DNA from: a bacterium | Lineage (GTDB): Bacteria; Bacteroidota; Bacteroidia; Flavobacteriales_D; Crocinitomicaceae | Assembly (NCBI GenBank): GCA_024742305.1 | Contig: JANSYQ010000002.1 | Coordinates: 1 to 64,000 of the forward strand | Direction: 5' to 3' | Length of the DNA stretch: 64,000 bases | Part shown: piece after piece, positions 16,132 through 64,000 of the stretch | How the letters are laid out: each line of letters starts with the position of its first letter | Numbering within the stretch: position 1 is the stretch's first letter | Program-made: the position numbers and the translations under genes | Notes under the pieces: model-generated | Seen by the model: the letters and a program-made list of their open reading frames with translations, nothing else | The model's database searches: none | Told to the model about the DNA's origin: nothing

Positions 16132-17805
16132 ATGAAAGTTGGTCTGATTCTCCTCCTTTTGATCCAAAGTCTTGCCCTCATGGCTCAAAGCCCGAACCCT
16201 CCCTGCGGTGATGATTACGGGTCTGCACAGGACGAAGCCAATATCATTCAGCAAATGCGCTTTGGCACTATTTCAGATGCACAAAATGCCATAGATCAAG
16301 CAAAAAATACTCGTGGTACAAGTTTGGGCTGTCCGCAGATTGCCTACAATCATAATCCGGCAAACTACAATCAGCCAAGCTTAAACGACGTTTCTACCAT
16401 TTGGAACACCGTACATCTTCCGGCTATTGAATCGTTTACAATCAATTGTCCGAGAATTGGACGGTATGAAAACAACGCCGCACTCGGTGCCTATTATGCC
16501 AATTTAGCCGGTTTCTCGGTGGACTTAAATGTGTTGTATGATGTCGCTCAAATGCAGATGGCTCAGCAATACACTGCAGCGAACGTAAGCAATCTTGATC
16601 CACAGCATGAAGGCGTATTCGGATATGTACACACGCCGTCAAGCGATCCTTGTTATCCCGGTGGAGTAGTTGGTTCATCGGTTGCTGCGGTTTGTGCAAA
16701 TATTCCATCCTATTGCGTCACATACGACAACGGATTGTTTGCGGGTGAGGACTTTTTAATTGGCGATCAATACGATCCTTTATCCTTTTATGACGGTGGA
16801 ATCGCCTATGATCATGGATGGGTTGGCGCTCATTTGATAGAAGCAGGCATTCAACAGGTGGATGCAAATCGTAAGTCAATTATCCGAAATTCCTTATTGA
16901 ATGCAACAGACTGGGCGAAGAATCAAGAAGTTGTTAAAAATCATAATTATACAGCTAAACTGATTTGGTTACTGGCTCAAATGTACAATTGGACAGGAGA
17001 TTCCACATATCGAATTGAATTGGATTACAAGCTAAATAAGAACCTTCTTCCGTCTGTTTTAATGGACCTTGACAACAACGGTTTTGTGGATGGAACCAAT
17101 CCAAATATCGCCTTTCAAGACTTGACAACGGTTGCTGAAATGCCGGGCAGAAATTGGGATGGTCACAACTCGTTACCGTGGTACAATGCGATGAATGCTT
17201 GGGCAATTACTGACGCTTATGTCGCATTTCGAGACCGAGGAGAAACACTTCGAGCACAAGAATTAAAGCCCTATGTCATTGCCATGCTCGACAATCTATC
17301 ATGGGAAATAAACAACCTGGGCATTATTGATGACCAACTGGGCGTTCGAGATTTGACATTTGCTCTGCTGAACGGAATTTGGAAAGTTGCTCAATACGAA
17401 AATGAAGCGCATCCTGAATGGGAATCTGCAGCTTGGGCCATGTGGAATTCCGGTTATTTCAATACATATTCAACACATAGTGTATGTGTAGGTTTGTATC
17501 TATGTGTGCTTTCTAGTACACCGTATCAGCCTCTTTTCGAAAGAGAAAGCTTTGTATCCGTAACTGAGTTGGATGATGCTGCTATTCGAATTTATCCGAA
17601 CCCATCTTCAGGTGTAATCACAGTTAAGAACGAGCTTGGAGGTGAATGTCATATCGCCATTAAATCATTGACGGGACAGGAAGTGTATACGGGACGTCTC
17701 TCATCAACGGATGTAATTGACTTATCGACCTTCGGTTCGGGGATATATTTAATAGCCGTGATGAATGAAAACGGATCATTGGTAGAAAAAGTAGTGATCC
17801 AATAA
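16132..17805 (+). CDS. Secreted T9SS protein of unknown function, possibly alpha/alpha-toroid-like
   Basis: Signal peptide; helical repeats; C-terminal IRIYPNPSSGVITV...NENGSLVEKVVIQ sorting tail. Confidence 0.7.
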   Translation: MKVGLILLLLIQSLALMAQSPNPPCGDDYGSAQDEANIIQQMRFGTISDAQNAIDQAKNTRGTSLGCPQIAYNHNPANYNQPSLNDVSTIWNTVHLPAIESFTINCPRIGRYENNAALGAYYANLAGFSVDLNVLYDVAQMQMAQQYTAANVSNLDPQHEGVFGYVHTPSSDPCYPGGVVGSSVAAVCANIPSYCVTYDNGLFAGEDFLIGDQYDPLSFYDGGIAYDHGWVGAHLIEAGIQQVDANRKSIIRNSLLNATDWAKNQEVVKNHNYTAKLIWLLAQMYNWTGDSTYRIELDYKLNKNLLPSVLMDLDNNGFVDGTNPNIAFQDLTTVAEMPGRNWDGHNSLPWYNAMNAWAITDAYVAFRDRGETLRAQELKPYVIAMLDNLSWEINNLGIIDDQLGVRDLTFALLNGIWKVAQYENEAHPEWESAAWAMWNSGYFNTYSTHSVCVGLYLCVLSSTPYQPLFERESFVSVTELDDAAIRIYPNPSSGVITVKNELGGECHIAIKSLTGQEVYTGRLSSTDVIDLSTFGSGIYLIAVMNENGSLVEKVVIQ

Positions 17806-17873
17806 TCACGACCAATACTACTGGAAGTCCCTAGTCATCTCGACTCCGCTCAATGATTTAGGCGCTTTTTTAT

Positions 17874-19589
17874 TTACTGCTTCACAAAGCGAATTCGTGC
17901 CGGATGACTTGGATAGTTCACAGAGTGAACCTCTAAGAAATAAGCTCCCGATTTCAAGTGCGACAAATTCATCGAAAACTCGGAGGTATGAACACTTTGC
18001 GATGTAATTTCCCGTCCGGAGATATCCAAAACGCGCACTTGAGACAATAACTCATCACTTTGAATGTTCAAAGTTCCCAATGTTGGATTCGGATGTACCG
18101 ATAGACTGCTCATCCATACTTCTTCAAGCCCAACCAACTGCACGGTGAACTCCACACTTACTTGGCACCCTTCGGCATCGGTAATCACCACTTCGTACGT
18201 TCCCCCGCAAAGATCTGTCGCTGTCGCTGTGGTTTGCGATTGTGGATCGTTCCATTGATAGGAATACGGCGATACTCCTCCATCCACAATTAAATAGATG
18301 GTACCGTTACAATTGTCCGAGTCAGGAGCCATAAAGTTACTATAGGTAATGGCCTGAGGCTCGGGAACGTACACACAATGATTGTCTACCTGTCCCAAAT
18401 TGTCCGTAACCTGAACACAATACGTCCCAGCGGTTAGTCCGGTGACGGTTGCCGTAGTTGCATTCCCTGCTGCAGCATCCCATTGATACGTATACGGAGG
18501 TTGTCCCTGATTGGCATTAATCGTTGCCACGCCGTCTGAATCTCCAGCACATGTAGGTTGCTGTACACTTGGGTAAAGCGCCAGTCCATTACTGGTAGGA
18601 TATGTGACCATAACTTCCATGGCTACGGGAAGGTGATCGGACATATAGTACAAGGCGTTCACCACTGAGTCGGGGTACATGCTATTTGCACCGTTAAGAA
18701 GATTGGTATTGAAATGATTTCCATCGTTTCCTACCGCATCATAGGAGTTCGCAATGTATTGAACGTCATCAACTCCTGTCATCACGTTCGAAGAAACGAG
18801 AATTTGGTCAAAACGATCATCTGACCCGCCTTTGCTACCACAATCAAAATTCAAACTAGAGCGTGTGGACTGCGTGTGAATAGCTGCAAACGAACTATTG
18901 TTGTTCCAACTTCCGGGAGCATTGATGGGATCTTGAAGAGCGAAGGGGCCTGAAACGAGGTTTTGATAACCCGACTCGTTCGATGTGTACACATTTAGAT
19001 CTCCGCATACAAAATGATGATGATCGGTTGGTTGTGTAGCAATGTAATCCATGAGCAACTGCGTTTGTGCTGCACGAATATTCACGTTAGAGCCTCCACT
19101 TCCGGCTTTCAGGTGACACATGTACACGTCGATGAAGGTCGTATCATAGAAAGTGGTGAGATTGGGATCGTTGAGATATAAAACGTAGTGATCGATATCG
19201 CGCGAACTTGTAGCAATGACATCTTGGCTGTAAAAGATGAGTTTGTTTGCGTTGTAGAATAGCTGATTGTTCAAGTCGCCACCGTTTCCATTGGGGTGCC
19301 ACTGTGCTGATTGAAAATAATTCACGCCATTGACATTCAACGATCTTGTCAAAATGCTATCAGTACCAGCCTCCGTTTGAATTTCGCACGCCACAAAGAT
19401 ATCCGGCTGTAGATAGCTTAATACTTTTCTCAATGTATCCGCACGATTGGGCACTACCGTGTTGGTTCCGCAGTCATCGCGACCGTCAGGAAAGTTAAGC
19501 ACGTTGTACGCAACAATTTTTACCGTTTCTGTTTGAGAGAAAGATGCGGATGTACACAAGACAAACGCAAGTAAGAGTAGGCTTTTCAT
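17874..19589 (-). CDS. Secreted endonuclease/exonuclease/phosphatase-family protein with SprB-like repeats and T9SS tail
   Basis: VKIVAYNVLNFPD...HHHFVCGDLNVYTSNE...YMSDHLPVAMEV; PTCAGDSDGVATINANQGQPPYTYQWD repeat; VHPNPTLGTLNIQ tail; ATG at 19589 gives a clean signal peptide. Confidence 0.85.
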   Translation of the reverse strand: MKSLLLLAFVLCTSASFSQTETVKIVAYNVLNFPDGRDDCGTNTVVPNRADTLRKVLSYLQPDIFVACEIQTEAGTDSILTRSLNVNGVNYFQSAQWHPNGNGGDLNNQLFYNANKLIFYSQDVIATSSRDIDHYVLYLNDPNLTTFYDTTFIDVYMCHLKAGSGGSNVNIRAAQTQLLMDYIATQPTDHHHFVCGDLNVYTSNESGYQNLVSGPFALQDPINAPGSWNNNSSFAAIHTQSTRSSLNFDCGSKGGSDDRFDQILVSSNVMTGVDDVQYIANSYDAVGNDGNHFNTNLLNGANSMYPDSVVNALYYMSDHLPVAMEVMVTYPTSNGLALYPSVQQPTCAGDSDGVATINANQGQPPYTYQWDAAAGNATTATVTGLTAGTYCVQVTDNLGQVDNHCVYVPEPQAITYSNFMAPDSDNCNGTIYLIVDGGVSPYSYQWNDPQSQTTATATDLCGGTYEVVITDAEGCQVSVEFTVQLVGLEEVWMSSLSVHPNPTLGTLNIQSDELLSQVRVLDISGREITSQSVHTSEFSMNLSHLKSGAYFLEVHSVNYPSHPARIRFVKQ

Positions 19590-59395: not shown

Positions 59396-59478
59396 GGAAT
59401 AACCGTTTTGCACTAGGTAATGTGGCGTTTTCTCTCGAGTGTAATTGTTGCGCCATTTTGCTTAGTGCATGCTATGCC
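59396..59478 (-). other. attC-like imperfect hairpin 2 (downstream of TIR gene)
   Basis: GCACTAGGTAATGTGGCG (59410-59427) pairs with 59451-59468 at 14/18 Watson-Crick; shares AACCGTTTTGC and TAATGTGGC with hairpin 1. Confidence 0.5.
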
Positions 59479-59481
59479 TAT

Positions 59482-60255
59482 TTATTCATTTAATAATCTA
59501 ATTGTTTGCCTTACTATATTCACAAATAATTCTTCTCTCTCAATTTCATCCATTTTGATCAACGGGCGATCAGGAGGATTCATTGCCTGAAATTGATTCA
59601 ACTCCTCAAGGGATTCAAACAGACAAGGTTTTAGAATTACAGTTAGAATTGTCGCCCCATTAATTTCCGCGGCTTCAAGTAATGGTGGCAGCTCATGGGA
59701 AGAAATAAAGTCAGAACCCATAAAATCAGTACTTACTAAAAGAATTGCCACCTTCGTTTCTTCAATTGCTTTCTTAATTTCATCTTTCCATTTAGCACCT
59801 GGATTAATTTTGCTATCATCCCAAAATTCAATTTTATCTAGGAAAGGCTTAAAGTGCCTTTGAATTTCTTTCATATATTCCTTGTCAGCATGTGAATAGC
59901 TTACAAAAACTTTACTCCTAGATTTATTCGATGTAGTTGACTTCTTGTGGGCAACTGCGGGAAGAGTGCCTAACTCTTGTTTTAGATAAAATAGGAATTT
60001 TTCTGTCCTTATTTCATAATCACAACTCGGTGAGGCTTGGCCATCATGTCTTTCATTTCTATGATTTTGTAACTCAGATTTTGCATATAACTCGACTTGA
60101 TCAAGAAAAATAGCCTTTGACTCTTGAGAGTAGAAGTCTGTTAATTTGTCTTTAATCTTTTCGAATTGTGATGCTGCAGTTTGTTGCGCGTCTAGATGGA
60201 TGAAGTACTCCATAAACTCTGAGGCCTCATGTCGAATTAATTGTTCATCATTCAT
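59482..60255 (-). CDS. TIR domain protein
   Basis: C-terminal SKVFVSYSHADKEYMKEIQRHFKPF...IEFWDDSKINPGAKWKDEIKKAIEETKVAILLVSTDFMGSDFISSHELPPLLEAAE. Confidence 0.93.
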   Translation of the reverse strand: MNDEQLIRHEASEFMEYFIHLDAQQTAASQFEKIKDKLTDFYSQESKAIFLDQVELYAKSELQNHRNERHDGQASPSCDYEIRTEKFLFYLKQELGTLPAVAHKKSTTSNKSRSKVFVSYSHADKEYMKEIQRHFKPFLDKIEFWDDSKINPGAKWKDEIKKAIEETKVAILLVSTDFMGSDFISSHELPPLLEAAEINGATILTVILKPCLFESLEELNQFQAMNPPDRPLIKMDEIEREELFVNIVRQTIRLLNE

Positions 60256-60263
60256 TGTTATGC

Positions 60264-61553
60264 CTATTTTCCTTTTAACATTTTATCAATTTCAGCAATA
60301 GTATTTTCATTGAGTTCAGGTATCCTTGTGTAAAGTTTGTTCATCAGAATTTTTGGAGGGTCAATTTCTCCAATAACTAAAAACAACAGTTTAATTCTAT
60401 TCTCAGATTCCTTTAATAAAATATATTCCAACTCCCTTCCAAATTGTTCAGACGTTGAAGAATTCTTTGTAATTATTACTAAACCAATTTGAGTATTTTT
60501 AAAGTGTTTTTTAATTAAGGTTTGATCAAAGGTTTCACTGAACAACCATCCTTGATAATTATTCGACGATTTTCTAATTCTATTAGCAATTTGATTTTGA
60601 ATTTTCTCATCTTTTTGAGATGATATTATTAGTATGTTCTTTAATTCACTTTGATCGGCTTGTTTTTCTGAAACTACTTTGTTTTCAGTTTTTTGATATA
60701 ATTCATTTAAGAAACTATCAACTTGTGAATGAGTTTTATCAGTCTTGTACTCAATGATTTCTAACCTCTTATCTAGAAGCAATCTCCGTTTTTCTGTTAG
60801 ATTGAATTTAGTTTCTGGAAGTAAAACAAAGTGTCTATCCAAAGTACGAGAAAAAACTGATGATAATCTGTCCAATATGTAATCTAAATCTGGATCTGAA
60901 CCGCCGAAGCCAACGAAAAGAACGGTGTGAGTAGTAAACAATGTTTCTAGAAAATTCAAATATTCAGGAGTTCTAAAAAGTAAATTGGAATAGCTTCTAC
61001 TTCCAAGAATGATGGTTTCAGGTCTATCTATATCTCCGTGTATTTTGAAAAGAAAAAACTTATTTTTCCTTAAAGGCGAAGAAATTGATTTTAAATCTTC
61101 TTGAGTAAACTTAACAGGCATTTTCCCAGAATTTTCCAACGAATATCCGCCCTCAACCAATGCGTCATAGTTACTTGTTAAAATTGCACGAAAATTAATC
61201 TTATTTATAAGCCTATGTGTTTCGGTGGGCTTAACTTCTTCATCTCGGAATGTTAAGTTTAGAAAATCTGAAAATTCTCCAACTCCGATACATTCTTGAA
61301 GCTCTTGGGCAGCCATCAACAGATTGTTTCTACTAATCATGTCTCTAATTTCTTCTGGATCGCTCCAAAAGGTTACATTTTTGTCAATTGCCCAATCCAA
61401 GAGTTCTTCGAGAAAAACTGACCAGCTTGGCAAGTTCTTTCCGTTACTCCTCTTAACTTTTGAAGAAAGCCCTGATCCTATAAATAGAACACATTTACGT
61501 TCTTCGATTGAATTAGTCAGTTCTTGTGGTATTATTCCTTGAAATTTCTTCAT
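60264..61553 (-). CDS. SIR2-like domain protein with C-terminal TIR-like domain
   Basis: CVLFIGSGLSSKV; AILTSNYDALVEGGY; FKIHGDIDRPETIILGSRSY; VLFVGFGGSDPDLDYIL; C-terminal NILIISSQKDEKIQNQIANRI...LVIITKNSSTSEQFGRELEYIL. Confidence 0.88.
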   Translation of the reverse strand: MKKFQGIIPQELTNSIEERKCVLFIGSGLSSKVKRSNGKNLPSWSVFLEELLDWAIDKNVTFWSDPEEIRDMISRNNLLMAAQELQECIGVGEFSDFLNLTFRDEEVKPTETHRLINKINFRAILTSNYDALVEGGYSLENSGKMPVKFTQEDLKSISSPLRKNKFFLFKIHGDIDRPETIILGSRSYSNLLFRTPEYLNFLETLFTTHTVLFVGFGGSDPDLDYILDRLSSVFSRTLDRHFVLLPETKFNLTEKRRLLLDKRLEIIEYKTDKTHSQVDSFLNELYQKTENKVVSEKQADQSELKNILIISSQKDEKIQNQIANRIRKSSNNYQGWLFSETFDQTLIKKHFKNTQIGLVIITKNSSTSEQFGRELEYILLKESENRIKLLFLVIGEIDPPKILMNKLYTRIPELNENTIAEIDKMLKGK

Positions 61554-61566
61554 GCTGTGTTAATTA

Positions 61567-61622
61567 GGCATAACGTTTTGCGGCTAAGCCAACGTATTAA
61601 TGTGGCTTAGGTGTTGTTATGG
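61567..61622 (-). other. attC-like hairpin 1 (between large nuclease-like gene and SIR2 gene)
   Basis: Minus strand CCATAACAACACCTAAGCCACATTAATACGTTGGCTTAGCCGCAAAACGTTATGCC; CATAAC/GTTATG outer arms and CTAAGCC/GGCTTAG inner arms. Confidence 0.6.
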
Positions 61623-63998
61623 TTATTTTGATTTTTTTATATGTTCCTCCCATTTATCACTCAATACTTCGCCCCACGTTTTAATTTTGAGATGTTTTTT
61701 TAGCGTTAATTCACTCAGGTTAGAAATGAACCCTTCATTTCTATGATACGCATGCATTTGTGATTCATACTCGTTAAGTGCATCATACACTTCTGAAGGC
61801 ATAAGTTCTTTTCTTGTTAATATCATGATCGAATTAATTGGCCTATGATCATTTCCTTTTCTATAGTGATCCACAAGTAATTTTAATTGATCCTTTTCAA
61901 ATTTTGTTAGTTTATCTTTAAGTGTGGCAAAAACTAAGGTGGAACCCGGAATATCATCTCCAAGCATTTTCATTCTATTAAAGTCCTCTTGTTCAAAATC
62001 ATTAAATGTTTTACACTCACATAATAGCAATTCTGCGCCTTGGTCATTCCCAACACTTCTTTTAATCAATGTAGCCAAATCTACTTCTAGTTTTTCCTTT
62101 CCTTCCTGTTTCAATTCAAATCCAGCTAGAGGTGTTAATGCCCCAAACATATCAGCCAGCTCTCGCTTAAATAGGTTCAAACAAAGAAATACTGTCATCA
62201 AACCACCAACCTTATTGTTTCTGCTAAATGGACCGATACCTCGATAAGCCCATTTTATTTCATTTGGATTATAACTCGGAAGTTCAAATGACCTTCTACA
62301 GACGTTACAGGTCATTGTATTTTGTAGTTGATTCGGTAAGAAGAATGATTTTTGATGACATACGGTACATTTTAGTTGAGCTCCTAATTCAATTATTTTA
62401 TCATCTAAAAGTGTGTAAATCAAGCTTTCAACATGTCCATTATTGTTGTTTTTAAATGTTCTTTTTATTGTCCCAATAAGAGGCTGATGTTCAATAACCT
62501 TCCCATTCTCAAAGAGAGAAATAATTTCAAATGTTTCAATTTTTCCAAGAAAATAAGCTCCACGTAATCCTCCAAGATTTTTAATGACTTCTTCGGCAAG
62601 CTTTCCATTAGAATGTATTTCCAAAGTTTTTCCTTTATGCTTGAAGAATTCGGTATAGAAATCTTTGGCGCTTGGTATTTGAAATTGTATTCTTCTGTCG
62701 CCTGATCGAACATAATGGAAAACCTTTTTACTAGTTAGGCGCCATTTTTTTCTATCATAGGTTCCTACTATGCTATTCCAATCAGCTGTTGTTATATCTG
62801 AGATTGCTCCGGCTTTCAAAAATGAATCATCATTAAATGACATTTCTATTTCAACCTTGTAGAAGGTGTCACGAAATCCGTGATTTTCTATTTTAAAAGG
62901 GAGATCGTTTGCCTCAAATCGAATATAATCGTGGTCTACTTCATGTTGATCATATTCATTCGAAGAATATTGAAAGCAACTAACTGCTTTGTCAGCATCT
63001 AAAGTTTGGTAGTCTTCCCAATATCTTGGTTTCCAGTTATAATTTGCAAACTGAACTTTAAGCTTAGATTTATCTGCACAAGTATTTAGAAACGCATTGA
63101 GTTTCTTAGCATCTTTAGAGTTTATCCCAATACCAGGAATGACATTTAAAATGTTCATTACCGTACTACCTTCATTTCTAACGTACCATTCAATAAAATC
63201 ACATGTAAGTTTAATTATGTATTCTTGACTCAATTCTTCTATTGGTAGAGGGATTAAATTCCAACCAAGGGCACGTAAATTCCAGAAATTTTGAATGTCA
63301 ATCAGGTCATTATTCTTGATAACATATATTGCAGAAGCGCGATACCATCCTTGCTCCCTGCCAATGGAGAGTTTATACATGCTTATTTCATACGGACCGT
63401 AAGCATTTAAGCGTGTTTCTGATGGCTTATAGTTTTGCTTGATTCTAGGATTCTCGTAAAATTTCGAATCTTTAAATCTTTCATTGATTTTCTTGTGAAT
63501 ATCTTCGTTTAGCGCACCAATTGTTGTCCTTATTAATAATGCATTTTTGTTAAATGTCGGTAATGAAATTTTGAGGGAGTCGTTCCGAACATATTTAAAT
63601 TCATTTTCATTTAGACACTCGAGTAATTGAAAAATGTCGATACCATTAGATGAATGACCACGAATTAATTTGTCTTTGAACTGTGTGAAGGAAATAATAT
63701 TTCTGTCGTCGGATATTTCTTTAACAAGCTCCTCACTTAATGTGTCGTCGTAGACAATAACATCAACATTGTAGTTGTCTAAAGTATTGTAATAATAAGT
63801 TTCCGTTGGAACTGAAATACCCAGTCCATTAATGAATGACTCTGACAGGTTCTTATACAACGGTATAATAGGAGAATAAAAACCGCCCCATAAAGCACAG
63901 CTTAAACCTACCGCACTATCAAAACTCTTTTTTGAATTTGGACGAGTTAGAAAACAAAATTTAATCGGGGCTACCCTTTGATTTATTCCTACATACAT
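61623..63998 (-). CDS. Large protein of unknown family with zinc ribbon and candidate C-terminal PD-(D/E)XK nuclease domain; may continue past the right edge
   Basis: CTVCHQKSF...MTCNVCRRSFELP zinc ribbon; LEVDLATLI...GAELLLCECKTFNDF resembles D...ExK; the true start may lie outside the window. Confidence 0.75.
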   Translation of the reverse strand: MYVGINQRVAPIKFCFLTRPNSKKSFDSAVGLSCALWGGFYSPIIPLYKNLSESFINGLGISVPTETYYYNTLDNYNVDVIVYDDTLSEELVKEISDDRNIISFTQFKDKLIRGHSSNGIDIFQLLECLNENEFKYVRNDSLKISLPTFNKNALLIRTTIGALNEDIHKKINERFKDSKFYENPRIKQNYKPSETRLNAYGPYEISMYKLSIGREQGWYRASAIYVIKNNDLIDIQNFWNLRALGWNLIPLPIEELSQEYIIKLTCDFIEWYVRNEGSTVMNILNVIPGIGINSKDAKKLNAFLNTCADKSKLKVQFANYNWKPRYWEDYQTLDADKAVSCFQYSSNEYDQHEVDHDYIRFEANDLPFKIENHGFRDTFYKVEIEMSFNDDSFLKAGAISDITTADWNSIVGTYDRKKWRLTSKKVFHYVRSGDRRIQFQIPSAKDFYTEFFKHKGKTLEIHSNGKLAEEVIKNLGGLRGAYFLGKIETFEIISLFENGKVIEHQPLIGTIKRTFKNNNNGHVESLIYTLLDDKIIELGAQLKCTVCHQKSFFLPNQLQNTMTCNVCRRSFELPSYNPNEIKWAYRGIGPFSRNNKVGGLMTVFLCLNLFKRELADMFGALTPLAGFELKQEGKEKLEVDLATLIKRSVGNDQGAELLLCECKTFNDFEQEDFNRMKMLGDDIPGSTLVFATLKDKLTKFEKDQLKLLVDHYRKGNDHRPINSIMILTRKELMPSEVYDALNEYESQMHAYHRNEGFISNLSELTLKKHLKIKTWGEVLSDKWEEHIKKSK

Positions 63999-64000
63999 TC

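Follow-up and report, generated by a model that had tools for sequence, protein, structure and literature searches.

An attC site in a Crocinitomicaceae cassette array, with a XerA-like integrase lacking I2 as its likely recombinase

The DNA analysed here (the window) is composed of 64,000 nucleotides, positions 1 to 64,000 of contig JANSYQ010000002.1 (C54) in the Crocinitomicaceae assembly GCA_024742305.1 (G000). Towards its right end lie gene cassettes bounded by attC sites, with the following components:

59397..59478, minus strand: attC2, with R'' GGCATAGC and R' GTTATTC, a long stem with A.C mismatches
59403..61573, minus strand: cassette between attC1 and attC2, starting TTATGCCTA and ending TAGGCATAGC plus attC2
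59482..60255, minus strand: cassette gene 2, a TIR-domain protein (ThsB-like) of 257 aa
60264..61553, minus strand: cassette gene 1, a protein of 429 aa with a SIR2-like (ThsA/Dsr-like) domain and a weak C-terminal TIR match
61567..61622, minus strand: attC1, with R'' CCATAAC at 61622-61616 and R' GTTATGC at 61574-61568
61574..64000, continuing to C54 64022, minus strand: next cassette upstream, starting TTATGGTTA after attC3 and ending TAACCATAAC plus attC1
61623..63998, minus strand: gene of that upstream cassette, encoding 791 aa
C54 64015-64099, just outside the window, same orientation as attC1: attC3, 83% identical to attC2

C54 has three attC sites, all in the same orientation, and with five on contig C7 the whole genome has at least eight. 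The two that lie either side of attC1 are both longer than it.

The preliminary description had recognised an inverted two-box attC layout at 61567-61622 (minus strand), and re-reading of the sequence confirmed it. From 61622 to 61567 the minus strand reads CCATAACAACACCTAAGCCACATTAATACGTTGGCTTAGCCGCAAAACGTTATGCC, the inner stem being CTAAGCCA/TGGCTTAG; with 49 nt between YAAC and GTTR this is a short form. The crossover G|TT was placed between 61574 and 61573, a position inferred from the cassette boundary. CCATAAC and GTTATGC do depart from the RYYYAAC/GTTRRRY consensus, as had been remarked, but the gap of 1 nt reported between stop codon and site has to be corrected to 0 nt, the TAA of the 791-aa gene being 61625-61623. 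Folding of the bottom strand, proposed as a check, gave -13.0 kcal/mol (z = -5.5, equalled by 0 of 200 shuffles), and the gene strand folds more weakly (-6.8 kcal/mol, z = -1.9). That attC1 folds better opposite the genes agrees with the preference for the bottom strand that an attC should show. Rfam, scanned at gathering thresholds, gave one tRNA only and no match at attC1. A search of the whole genome for further copies, also proposed, identified an 83%-identical copy on contig C7 with unrelated genes on either side. The same hairpin found genome-wide without cassette boundaries would have refuted the attC reading; this was not the case, as the other copies in G000 also stand at cassette boundaries.

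If a cassette is a circle opened within its attC, the bases after the upstream crossover must complement the R'' end of the same cassette. On C54 the sequences just past the crossover, G|TTATGGTTA, G|TTATGCCTA and G|TTAACAGCA, are the reverse complement of TAACCATAAC, TAGGCATAGC (one mismatch) and TGCTGTTAAC, respectively, the last pair being the start and end of an upstream Old/AAA-TOPRIM cassette (gene at C54 64101-65795, outside the window). Closure covers the first 9-10 nt of each cassette after the G|TTR crossover; by direct reading, the ends of the mismatched cassette are complementary in 11 of 13 nt. First bases that are the reverse complement of a cassette's own last bases are what circular cassettes require. 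The five-site array of C7 has closure pairs that include GTTATAAGTA/TACTTATAAC, GTTAGGTGC/GCACCTAAC and GTTATGCAC/GTGCATAAC. Under an exact 9-nt rule, chained cassettes were observed in C54 and C7 and were nearly absent from first-order Markov shuffles of both; they were also found in many relatives. The membership feature of at least two attC with co-oriented cassettes is thus present in C54, C7 and relatives. The interpretation of attC1 as a real gene-cassette recombination site, inferred at the outset from shape, is supported by this complementarity, although it rests on sequence and no recombination data exist. The C7 array starts ...ATATAAGTAAG|TTAGTAAC and the C54 array ...ATATAAACTAG|TTAACAGC, indicating that both begin at attI-like sites without an adjoining integrase.

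Judging from their predicted domains, cassette genes 1 and 2 form a Thoeris-like pair. The 791-aa protein has no Pfam, NCBIfam or PADLOC match. Elsewhere the cargo includes GajA/Old-like proteins, a GajB-like helicase and HEC-05. Defence cassettes are already known from canonical integrons, according to 2025 work cited in PMC12444791. Between the SIR2-TIR and TIR genes, at 60256-60266 (minus strand), there is a lone R''-like sequence, TAGGCATAACA, nearly the same as the cassette end TAGGCATAGC and possibly what remains of an attC whose loss fused two cassettes. In G366, of the same genus, the genes flanking the C54 array are syntenic and there is no cassette. A precise empty site in that genome was considered and rejected: the YHYH-domain gene and recA are kept with other genes between them, so the array is absent without leaving a clean empty site.

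An IntI-type integrase had been anticipated beyond the right edge of the window. None is near, and canonical IntI is missing from G000 (99.9% complete) at the IntI cut-off, which none of its seven tyrosine-recombinase matches exceeds. The best IntI-like match is a 280-aa protein at C5:18235-19077, which passes NF040815 (235 bits, cut-off 220) and falls below TIGR02249 (199.9 bits, cut-off 265), leaving IntI profile positions 178-239 unmatched. Its matches among solved structures are XerA and IntI4, with no counterpart to the IntI4 residues between the two matched stretches; the structures nearest to its AlphaFold2 model (pLDDT 83) are XerA 5hxy and IntI4 2a3v. The XerA-type criteria (NF040815 cut-off, RKHRHY set, no insert) are all met, and the canonical-integron criterion of an IntI-specific additional domain is not. 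There is an attI-like site 83 nt past the stop codon, TATAAGTAAG|TTATGC (crossover part ATAAGTAAG|TTATGC), and the contig ends 140 nt beyond this site, 223 nt past the gene, inside the first cassette. G000 also has two other XerC/D-like genes (L003 and L005). In the C5 locus 17577-19077 (L021) the integrase directly follows thrS-infC-rpmI-rplT, the neighbours of the Vibrio integron integrase. Adjacency to rplT was rejected as a trait of the family, having been found only in G000 among the loci fetched; the neighbourhood common to G000 and Vibrio may be coincidence or a shared hotspot.

In the alignment, 88-94 residues separate the first catalytic Arg from the box-II His in 62 of 62 Bacteroidota integrases, versus 131-132 in 25 of 25 IntI. 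The IntI-specific insert of about 42 residues (I2 region) is present in none of these 62, and the RKHRHY catalytic set is complete in 61. In the tree, IntI forms one clade with support 100, to which the array-bearing Bacteroidota enzymes do not belong. Columns filled in less than half of the rows were omitted, and hence the insert itself. The deep branching order is weakly supported, so the tree does not decide between array use that predates IntI and array use that evolved on two occasions. In PMC7790495, I2 is described as a requirement of cassette capture that confers recombination of single strands and is known from no other protein; the same paper states that I2 has not been directly proven to be the cause of single-strand recombination. 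Deletion of I2 abolished IntI1 function, a result for which we rely on its citation in PMC7790495 (Messier and Roy 2001). Since loss of I2 kills IntI1, an enzyme without it would need another block on second-strand exchange.

Within the family 40 of 60 genomes encode the integrase, and within the class 105 of 198 do. Named carriers are, among others, Flavobacterium aciduliphilum, Algoriphagus ornithinivorans, Aquiflexum, Rufibacter, Seonamhaeicola aphaedonensis and Winogradskyella ursingii. In the complete genome G004 a superintegron lies downstream of it, with at least 15 cassettes and attC that are about 160 nt long. Counting the 32 loci that extend at least 1.5 kb beyond the integrase, the first cassette starts 30-170 nt after the integrase stop in 20, versus 35 of 1,063 control windows upstream (3.3%; p = 4e-20), and attI has the form ATAAnnnAG|TTR or hairpin-TG|TTR in 20 of the 32. 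The canonical-integron feature of an attI beside the integrase gene, to which the first cassette is joined, is present in these loci. A further sample of 20 class genomes yielded 14 loci reaching 1.5 kb or more past the integrase, of which 11 have chains downstream and one upstream. For the true IntI of Vibrio atypicus the chain is on the other side of the gene, as classical geometry requires. The alphaproteobacterial homologues checked have no cassette chain, and no array is detectable near some integrase homologues. Contigs of seven genomes (G037, G054, G047, G018, G057, G015 and G424) end in ...GTT, GTTA or GTTAT downstream of the integrase; these are the bases that all cassettes have in common at the crossover. 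An assembly forking at precisely this point agrees with first cassettes that vary within the population sequenced, which is a hint of activity seen without read data, or with repeats of the site.

The homologues vary in architecture. Most relatives (L025, L030, L054, L122 and others) are extended at the N-terminus by about 100 aa (in some cases 200 aa) ahead of the SAM-like domain; the extension has no clear Pfam match and is absent from G000. In a subgroup (L145, L148 and L152) the open frames reach about 700 aa, of which roughly 430 aa precede the recombinase, and L145 also has a downstream cassette array. In L065 and L066 (G057 and G015) the homologue is directly followed by a gene resembling a zinc-binding IS91-type transposase instead of cassettes. 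L139 and L133 are relatives in records labelled Spirochaetota (with the first-site closure link) and Undinarchaeales (transfer or contamination unresolved).

Across 116 chained cassettes the median length is 750 bp, and the longest ORF runs in the array direction in 103, starting a median of 35 nt after the crossover and stopping a median of 17 nt before the R'' end. Most attC have 124-129 nt between YAAC and GTTR. Of 102 sites folded, the bottom strand is more stable in 77, the top strand in 23, and two are equal (sign test, z about 5.4). As a control, three of four Vibrio attC were more stable on the top strand; four sites are no basis for a claim about strand bias. A spacer excess of 3-4 nt on the L'-R' side relative to the R''-L'' side was found in 76 of 92 strong stems.

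Taken as a whole, we think it probable that attC1 belongs to a sedentary-type integron array with a XerA-like integrase without I2 as the likely recombinase, a reading for which there are no activity data. Cassettes of one or a few genes would leave the array as circles and re-enter it through site-specific recombination at G|TTR, and the recombinase, an identity that we infer, is most likely the XerA-like tyrosine recombinase encoded in G000 at C5:18235-19077. The expected order is the integrase gene, then attI (ATAAnnnAG|TTR), then, in relatives, a co-directional cassette array. By inference, attC probably recombines as a folded bottom strand. What marks this strand could be the L'-R' spacer, with its conserved surplus of 3-4 nt, together with G.T pairs, instead of extrahelical bases docked in I2. 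Since the window array stands at an attI-like sequence without an adjoining integrase, its cassettes were probably inserted in trans, which is likewise inferred. Against this proposal, the integrase and the two arrays of G000 are on different contigs, and the only local link is the attI-like site. Further points against it are the homologues without a detectable array, those beside a transposase-like gene, and the loss of IntI1 function once I2 is removed.

The reading that competes most seriously, though we judge it unlikely, is that double-stranded circles move between dif-like sites in the manner of Xer/p-dif modules, the attC hairpin being merely a binding-site palindrome. The integrase is indeed XerA-like and without I2, attI is dif-like (ATAA, 5 nt, TTA) and there is a single crossover per cassette. 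However, dif modules are 28 bp, and these attC, unlike such modules, are long near-perfect hairpins that favour the bottom strand and have a conserved spacer excess on one side. Moreover, R'' and R' of one arrayed attC differ beyond YAAC/GTTR and are complementary only in the cassette circle.

The classical outline of the attC anatomy, and a window array that is CALIN-like in having no integrase beside it, would also be seen if an ordinary integron array depended on a canonical IntI that acts in trans or has since been lost, the XerA-like gene being a bystander. We regard this as very improbable: arrays begin 30-170 nt past the XerA-like gene in the 20 of 32 loci described above, and IntI is over the cut-off neither in G000 nor in any of the 60 family genomes, and in only one of 198 class genomes, whereas its detection in 85 of 299 phylum genomes demonstrates that the search is able to find it. 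Hardly any weight is given to a dispersed stem-loop, REP-like repeat or terminator without a cassette role, which would agree with a hairpin just after a stop codon but not with the lack of a poly-T run or with copies that are few and every one between cassette-like genes; the sites are of unrelated sequence, sharing only position and complementarity to the cassette end.

In our reading, the Bacteroidota arrays form an integron lineage of their own, in which cassettes are captured without I2. With less assurance than for attC1 itself, we lean towards a broader view in which Bacteroidota hold a separate lineage of cassette capture through attC hairpins without I2, its integrase in about half of the class genomes, either predating IntI or derived independently from a XerA-like enzyme, and with strands told apart by some other feature of attC. 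If true, a tyrosine recombinase without a domain thought indispensable runs widespread integron-like arrays in Bacteroidota, and a natural family that keeps cassettes without I2 makes the role of I2 in single-strand recombination testable. Integron finders, including IntegronFinder, demand the IntI-specific domain (PMC9668308), and IntegronFinder 2.0 reports Salinibacter ruber as the sole complete integron in Bacteroidetes proper (PMC9024848). For this reason a large cassette pool of Flavobacteriales and Cytophagales (Thoeris-like, Old/GajA-like, GajB-like and HEC-05) would have been missed or left without an integrase. No description of the system was found in the open literature on Bacteroidota integrons, the missing domain and cassette defence genes, subscription papers and preprints being outside our scope.

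Comparison with known systems places the arrays closest in plan to the Vibrio superintegrons, which are sedentary and chromosomal with intIA by rplT: both have attI and an array of one-ORF cassettes, co-oriented genes, defence-like cargo, attC ends YAAC...GTTR and the crossover G|TT. In contrast to Vibrio, the Bacteroidota integrase has no IntI insert of about 42 residues, does not fall within the IntI clade and points the same way as the array; attI takes the form ATAAnnnAG|TTR, frequently preceded by an inverted repeat, and the attC spacer excess is 3-4 nt and one-sided. The C5 integrase resembles XerA in scoring above the cut-off of NF040815, and the name of that family (site-specific tyrosine recombinase/integron integrase) indicates that annotators already tie it to integron integrases. 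XerA acts on dif-type double-stranded sites, and we know of no cassette array for archaeal XerA. Reverse-oriented integrons of the Treponema denticola type have the integrase pointing toward the array, as in Bacteroidota, and encode a canonical IntI. The window array is also like CALIN, defined as attC clusters lacking integron-integrases (PMC9024848), in having attC and no adjoining integrase; unlike CALIN, it is accompanied by a candidate integrase and attI elsewhere in the same genome.
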